Part shown: one piece after another, positions 42,799 through 43,974 of the stretch
How the letters are laid out: every line of letters starts with the position of its first letter
Numbering within the stretch: position 1 is the stretch's first letter
Assembly (NCBI RefSeq): GCF_004154955.1
Contig: NZ_CP011524.1
Coordinates: 1,612,001-1,676,000, forward strand
Source of the DNA: Intestinimonas butyriciproducens
GTDB taxonomy: Bacteria > Bacillota > Clostridia > Oscillospirales > Oscillospiraceae
DNA length: 64,000 nucleotides
Reading direction: 5' to 3'
Notes under the pieces: model-generated
Told to the model about the DNA's origin: nothing
What the model saw: only the letters and a program-made list of their open reading frames with translations
Databases searched by the model: none
Program-made: the position numbers and the translations under genes

Positions 42799-43395
42799 TT
42801 ATTTGTCTGTAACGGGATTGGTGAAGTAAATATTTTTCTGATCCATTTTTTCTTTTGCCAGGCGGACCGCTTCACCAAATCTCTGGAAGTGGACGACCTC
42901 CCGCTCACGGAGGAACCGGATTACGTCGGTAACGTCCGGATCATCACAAAGGCGTAAAATGTTATCGTAGGTGACTCTGGCCTTCTGCTCCGCGGCCATG
43001 TCCTCGGTAAGGTCGGCGATTACATCGCCTTTTACAGCCATGGAGGCGGCGCTCCAGGGAAAACCGGAGGCCGCAGTCGGATAGACCCCTGTGGTATGGT
43101 CCACAAAGTAGGGGGCAAACTCAGCAATACGAGCATCGGTGTCGCTGATGTTCCGCGTGAGCTGATGGACGATGGCACCAATCATCTCTAAATGCCCCAG
43201 TTCTTCTGTACCAATGTCGGTCAAAAGGCCTTTCAGTTCGGCGTAGGGCATCGCGTATCTTTGGCTCAGATAGCGTAAAGATGCGCCGAGTTCGCCATCC
43301 GGTCCGCCATACTGACTGATAATGAAGGACGCCAGTTTGGGATTGGGCGTCTTGATTTTCACTGGATACTGTAGTTTCTTCTCGTAAGAAAACAT
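42799..43395 (-). CDS. cotJC: Manganese catalase-family spore coat protein CotJC
   Basis: A 198-residue ferritin-like protein related to manganese catalase. The di-metal ligands can be traced: ELGASLRYLSQRY, TDIGTEELGHLEMI and REREVVHFQRFGEA. In Bacillus CotJC is an inner coat component encoded with CotJA and CotJB; here the upstream gene is a CotJA-CotJB fusion whose TAA precedes this start directly. Coat association and some catalase activity are inferred from the family. Confidence 0.93.
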   Translation of the reverse strand: MFSYEKKLQYPVKIKTPNPKLASFIISQYGGPDGELGASLRYLSQRYAMPYAELKGLLTDIGTEELGHLEMIGAIVHQLTRNISDTDARIAEFAPYFVDHTTGVYPTAASGFPWSAASMAVKGDVIADLTEDMAAEQKARVTYDNILRLCDDPDVTDVIRFLREREVVHFQRFGEAVRLAKEKMDQKNIYFTNPVTDK

Positions 43396-43854
43396 TTATT
43401 TGCCCTCCTTCTCTGTGTAGTTCCAGGGCCACGGATCCTGGAGCCAAGTGTAGGTCTTGCTCCTGGCGGTTTCGCCGCGCATAATGGGGCCGCCGATCTC
43501 TACATAGTCGGCCCGCGCGGTCTCCTCCAGAGCGGCATACTGGCGGAAAAGCTCGAAGGCCTCGCCGTCAGAGGGATGCGTATCCAGATAGAGCGCCAGT
43601 TCCTGGAGCACAAATTCCAGCGCTTGCAGTTCCGTCATAGGCGTCTGCGGCAGGCTGGCCGCGTTGACTTTGGCACGGAAGGGGAGATTTAAGCCGGGAT
43701 AAAGCGTCCCATTATTGAGGGCATCCATTTGGGAATATCGCTTTGGATTGTTTTGCTGAAAGGGGACATATGGTACCGCCAGAGGGGCACATTCGGGCAG
43801 TGTGCCGCAGTTATCGCTGCATGTGGCGGGATTCGGTGCATTGTCAGGGTACAA
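43396..43854 (-). CDS. CotJA-CotJB fusion spore coat protein
   Basis: A 152-residue protein. Residues about 28-60 (LAVPYVPFQQ through NNGTLYPGLNLPF) match CotJA, and residues about 75-148 (LQALEFVLQELALYLDTHPSD through TWLQDPWPWN) match CotJB, which are separate proteins of about 80-90 residues in Bacillus. The frame is open throughout, so the joining is real in this sequence. The TTG start lies 11 bases after AAGGAGG on the - strand. The stop abuts cotJC. Coat assembly role is inferred. Confidence 0.85.
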   Translation of the reverse strand: MYPDNAPNPATCSDNCGTLPECAPLAVPYVPFQQNNPKRYSQMDALNNGTLYPGLNLPFRAKVNAASLPQTPMTELQALEFVLQELALYLDTHPSDGEAFELFRQYAALEETARADYVEIGGPIMRGETARSKTYTWLQDPWPWNYTEKEGK

Positions 43855-43974
43855 TTCAGGATTCCTCCTTCTATGGTTTCAGAGAGAACACTCTGTCCGG
43901 CAGAGTTCCCCTCCGTTTTATCTTATGTGGCATGGTGCAAAAGGGAACCTGACGTTTTAAAGCCGGAAACCATT

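Follow-up and report, generated by a model that had tools for sequence, protein, structure and literature searches.

In the family Oscillospiraceae, the spore coat genes cotJA and cotJB normally occur as one fused gene. This form is not peculiar to the locus from which the analysis started, which lies in a stretch of 64,000 nucleotides from Intestinimonas butyriciproducens (the window). The best explanation for the whole is a genuine, conserved fusion of a single origin. It would have arisen by a small indel where cotJA and cotJB overlapped; the two proteins would since have been made only as one chain, CotJAB, which would assemble together with CotJC. A probability of roughly 80% is assigned to this explanation taken as a whole.

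Both domains and the cotJ operon were already known. The joined form, ordinary for its family, seems to be unreported: no CotJA-CotJB fusion was found in the literature searched, of which coverage was partial, and annotators of domain architectures may know of it.

The cotJ operon of the window

The features of the operon, all on the reverse strand, are as follows.

43920..43927 (-): CATAAGAT box, 73 nt before the start of the fused gene (from the sequence)
43864..43870 (-): Shine-Dalgarno sequence AAGGAGG before the TTG start (from the sequence; a six-base match is scored)
43396..43854 (-): fused cotJA-cotJB gene, 152 aa, TTG start, TAA stop (open frame, with Pfam CotJA and CotJB in one frame)
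43678..43785 (-): CotJA domain, aa 24-59 (PF11007, E 2e-12)
43639..43677 (-): linker, aa 60-72 (13 residues in 63/66 aligned rows; conservation poor)
43420..43638 (-): CotJB domain, aa 73-145, with two predicted long helices (PF12652, E 1.8e-23; AlphaFold model)
42799..43395 (-): cotJC, 198 aa, intact, of the manganese catalase family (PF05067, E 3.5e-54)

The initial annotation had described CotJA and CotJB as joined in a 152-residue frame just before cotJC. The coordinates, strand, length and position of this frame are right, and both Pfam domains are present in it. CotJA scores 47.2 bits against a curated cut-off of 25 (profile positions 1-35 of 35), and CotJB 82.9 bits against 29 (positions 4-76 of 76). 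The gene is the sole CotJB match in a search of the window genome. Its TTG is also the chosen start in 96 of 135 fused loci (those numbered up to L177, near-copies counted).

In the window, cotJA, cotJB and cotJC follow each other in this order on one strand, the gene order of a cotJ operon. The B. subtilis operon contains the same three families in the same order, whereas in the window cotJA and cotJB share one frame and are not separate genes. The description of the two proteins as separate in Bacillus is consistent with PMC8745062, where the B. subtilis operon is given as tricistronic.

The ATG of cotJC directly follows the TAA of the fused gene, as read at the junction. CotJC reaches 184.2 bits with PF05067 (cut-off 27), and its residues E35, E65, H68, E136 and H169, presumably the metal ligands, align to the solved manganese catalase 1jku, as expected of a manganese catalase. 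The NCBIfam equivalog model for manganese catalase gives it 107.4 bits, short of the cut-off of 350.

The box in the window, CATAAGAT, resembles the -10 element of mother-cell sigma factors. Of 115 distinct fused loci, 82 have a CATANNAT box upstream, compared with 3.3 expected from shuffles. In B. subtilis, cotJB and cotJC are listed under sigma-E (PMC3416734).

Distribution and origin of the fusion

The survey of clostridial cotJ operons that the initial annotation had proposed was carried out on samples of genomes. In the genus, 8 of 11 genomes contain a CotJB match and all eight are fused; the other three have no match. In the family, a search with a profile of the fused protein found matches in 131 of 150 genomes, and in 125 of these 131 CotJA, linker and CotJB run in one frame. 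Two of the 125 (G026 and G082) are truncated where their contigs stop and were counted as fused since the frame passes the linker. The genes are separate in five others (G027, G036, G090, G121 and G128). The sixth, G084, was counted as not fused: its CotJA part stops inside the linker beside two recombinase-like frames, and its CotJB part is on another contig. In this genome (L226:1222-4787 and L227:2206-2646), the fused gene itself seems to have been interrupted in the linker. An in-frame stop in G060 was considered as a break in the fusion and rejected, as it is the end of the gene. An earlier search of the family with CotJB alone matched 172 of 200 genomes; of 30 loci fetched, 25 were fused and 5 separate.

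In the order, 109 of 147 genomes match, and 20 span both domains without a stop. These are 13 genomes of the window's family (f1 in the samples) and 7 of one further family, f79; no other family with the fusion appears among the matches listed. A genome of another family, G566, matches without a stop from profile position 52 and was rejected as fused, its actual frames being a separate, overlapping cotJA and cotJB. The class sample matches in 179 of 293 genomes; among the matches listed, only the three f1 genomes show an uninterrupted full length. The class search does not halt at stops, which gives an advantage to unfused loci whose two genes share a frame; the argument about the junction is therefore built on the order sample, which is mixed.

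In the named collection, 596 stretches matched the pattern and 584 encode a relative. The best 80 of these 584, sought with the fused profile, are all fused. They carry the names Intestinimonas, Flavonifractor, Pseudoflavonifractor, Lawsonibacter, Evtepia and Clostridium viride (Oscillospiraceae) or are unplaced. Named isolates with the fusion include Flavonifractor plautii ATCC 29863, Clostridium viride DSM 6836 and Evtepia gabavorous.

A sequencing or assembly error could in principle produce such a fusion, by removing a stop or a frame shift between the two parts, and the initial annotation had named this as what would refute it. The same in-frame fusion is found in 8/8 genus genomes with CotJB, and the same open junction in 125/131 matching family genomes and in named isolates. 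No point was found in favour of an error, which is left with a negligible probability. A fusion peculiar to a single species is likewise rejected by the class, family and order samples and by the tree.

The tree was built from the CotJA and CotJB domains alone, excluding the linker (120 columns from 158 distinct loci out of 185; FastTree, rooted at the midpoint); the program warned of few columns and long branches. All 115 fused rows fall in one clade with a support of 98 and one change of state, and family f79 is the first branch inside it. Because all fused rows form one clade, the fusion has a single apparent origin on the CotJA+CotJB tree.

On the tree, the unfused operons of G027, G090, G128 (g18), G036 (g27), G121 and G202 (g3) branch with other Clostridia and apart from the fused clade. 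This position, on a tree of few columns, speaks against fission within the family as their source. An acquired operon that took the place of the fused one fits better, as the same few columns suggest. The loci L009, L010, L011, L017, L021 and L186 are unfused cotJ operons of family members that group with other Clostridia.

How the fusion may have arisen can be read from unfused relatives in the order. The stop of cotJA and the start of cotJB overlap by four bases in L169, L171, L173 and L174 and by one base in L175 and L177. There is no overlap in L170 and L176, where cotJB starts one base past the stop, or in L168, where it starts three bases past it. The two domains are 35-47 nt apart in seven of the ten unfused loci L168-L177 (the others are L168 with 90, L172 with 185 and L176 with 64) and 30-45 nt apart in fused genes. 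Unfused cotJ operons of other Clostridia (for instance L169-L177) have the same gene order and CotJA-CotJB spacing; they differ in that cotJA and cotJB have frames of their own, which often overlap at their ends, and in the Shine-Dalgarno sequence at cotJB. A small indel at a short overlap, in the common ancestor of the two families, would have fused the genes and left their spacing unchanged.

Synthesis and putative function of CotJAB

After the fusion, the ribosome site of cotJB itself would have been lost, and CotJB would appear only as the C-terminal half of CotJAB, in a 1:1 ratio with CotJA. At least four bases of a Shine-Dalgarno sequence precede cotJB in 37 of 43 distinct unfused loci. 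Of the 115 distinct fused genes, 16 have no start codon near the position where CotJB once began, and in 90 such a codon stands without a Shine-Dalgarno sequence; the internal Shine-Dalgarno sequence is thus missing in 106, including the gene of the window.

Separate CotJA and CotJB might still be made, either by internal initiation or by cleavage within the linker. In the fused gene of the window, codon 73 is an ATG, in the region of the old CotJB start, and 9 of the 115 fused genes have kept an internal start with a Shine-Dalgarno sequence of 4-6 bases. The ATG of the window stands without such a sequence, as do 106 of the fused genes, against the 37 of 43 unfused loci that have one, and separate chains are improbable. 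Because the internal ribosome site is mostly lost, CotJB is predicted to exist only tethered to CotJA and to be synthesized in no other form than CotJAB; this applies to the window as well. The initial annotation had read the fusion as fixing the ratio of the two proteins at 1:1 and as a hint that they form one unit around CotJC. The missing internal Shine-Dalgarno sequences support the fixed ratio. As for the unit, we infer from the known families that CotJAB may form one with CotJC.

The linker is conserved in length and not in sequence. It has 13 residues in 63 of 66 aligned fused proteins, and its mean entropy in this alignment is 2.39 bits, compared with 1.02 for CotJA and 1.37 for CotJB. 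It is apparently a tether of fixed length and poorly conserved sequence.

These properties also bear on whether the fusion matters to the spore. Two overlapping genes may simply have merged and stayed merged, with the building of the coat unchanged. The genes were already coupled by short overlaps in unfused relatives, the sequence of the linker is poorly conserved, and unfused operons work too, judged by their presence in other spore formers. Against such neutrality, the length of the linker is nearly constant (63/66 rows), and no case was seen in which the fused gene had split again, since the family members with separate genes lie elsewhere on the tree. A neutral fusion is a serious contender, with somewhat less than an even chance of being right.

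In the mother cell, the operon would make CotJAB and CotJC, and the two would assemble together in the inner coat. An AlphaFold model of the fused protein has a mean pLDDT of 70.8. The CotJB hairpin is confident (helices 71-91 and 96-120), and the CotJA part is of low confidence and mostly extended. The conserved, flexible CotJA segment would bind a partner, most likely CotJC, and the helical hairpin of CotJB would be the folded part. This is the least certain step, with about even odds. CotJC is taken as the likeliest partner because of its position in the operon and of earlier work on cotJ in B. subtilis, which reportedly goes back to Henriques in 1995 and Seyler in 1997.

CotJAB and CotJC modelled as one chain gave a mean pLDDT of 53.9 and a pTM of 0.45. 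Because this model gave no usable information, no contact between CotJAB and CotJC is claimed. A sequence search of the PDB found no relative of the fused profile. Foldseek against the PDB had no match at E <= 0.001; its top entries were small helical proteins such as ribosomal S15.

Interrupted cotJC genes in relatives

In many relatives, cotJC ends early. This applies to 39 of the 105 distinct fused loci that are informative and to 12 of 40 unfused loci, a count that leaves out 10 loci cut by locus ends and three without a match. Of the 51 breaks, 50 fall into three bins around codons 33, 65 and 136 (bins <45, 45-80 and 125-145). The loosest within the bins is at 78 (L055), and the one outside them at 124 (L080). 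The break points coincide with the codons of E35, E65/H68 and E136.

Long stretches were fetched for 27 loci, two of them with an intact cotJC and 25 with a broken one. In 12 of the 25 (L189, L190, L191, L194, L198, L201, L202, L205, L206, L208, L211 and L213), the far half of cotJC abuts an inserted element; as L191 holds two elements, there are 13 junctions. The far half was found without abutting in L193 and L209. It was not found in the other 11, some of them 20 kb long, and nine of these 11 also have no frame with the recombinase motif.

The elements are 3.2-16 kb long, and all 13 contain a frame with a serine-recombinase motif. The five recombinases examined by Pfam all have Resolvase and Recombinase domains. 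At codon 65 they form a larger group with 39-88% identity and a second with 47-49%; those at codon 136 share 66%; and at codon 33 two of three share 52%, the third being unlike both. Across groups, identity is 21-31%. Different recombinase groups evidently use different sites in cotJC.

Once the flanks are joined, 8 of the 12 loci again have a continuous frame of 190-205 aa; in L191 this takes the joining of both junctions. In L205, L208, L211 and L213 the joined frame stops short of the end. Repeats of 8-13 bp are shared at five junctions and of 4-7 bp at the other eight, where the exact crossover is uncertain because the repeats are this short. When frame register is disregarded, the joined frame has 190 aa in L190 and 80 aa in L194.

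In the window's genus, the 16 kb element of L189 (882-16903) holds Cas1, Cas2, Cas3, Cas4, Cas5, Cas7 and Cas8 beside its recombinase, with best matches to subtype I-C models. Also in this genus, L191 (893-10957) is broken twice, by elements of 3.7 and 5.8 kb with unrelated recombinases, and both joins together give a 198-aa frame. The element in L194 contains FeoB, and the recombinase frame of L190 (2977-5181) has a C-terminal DNA alkylation repair domain, PF08713. The window genome, of 3.2 Mb, has 17 matches to the serine-recombinase family PF07508.

Skin-like intervening elements are a known counterpart. As far as the consulted part of a 2023 paper goes (PMC10747680), the interrupted sporulation genes it lists are sigK, spsM, spoVFB, gerE and yabG, and cotJC is not among them. 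The elements in cotJC are alike in being recombinase-bearing elements in a sporulation gene; a serine recombinase lies inside the interrupted gene, and the flanks rejoin in the frame of the host gene in 8 of 12 loci. They differ in host gene, in their three insertion regions at metal-ligand codons and in their several groups of recombinases. No report of an element in cotJC was found in the literature searched.

Excision of the elements during sporulation would be the obvious reading. The cotJ operon of the clade would then be a fused scaffold and in many species, though not in that of the window, also a developmental DNA switch. CotJAB would be made from an intact gene, and CotJC only after serine-recombinase elements at the metal-ligand codons had been excised in the mother cell. 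Some coats would obtain their catalase through a programmed rearrangement of DNA, and some elements would carry cargo (in one case the CRISPR-Cas genes of type I-C) inside a gene that serves only a dying cell. The chances of this being right are put at evens.

Being kept across a family, the fusion naturally hints that the two proteins act as one piece. It points to where a contact with CotJC may be sought, and it is also a marker of the clade. The interruption of cotJC in relatives is a larger finding than the fusion itself. If true, recombinase elements would interrupt one more sporulation gene beyond the few already listed, and would do so at three positions of cotJC and in several clostridial families.
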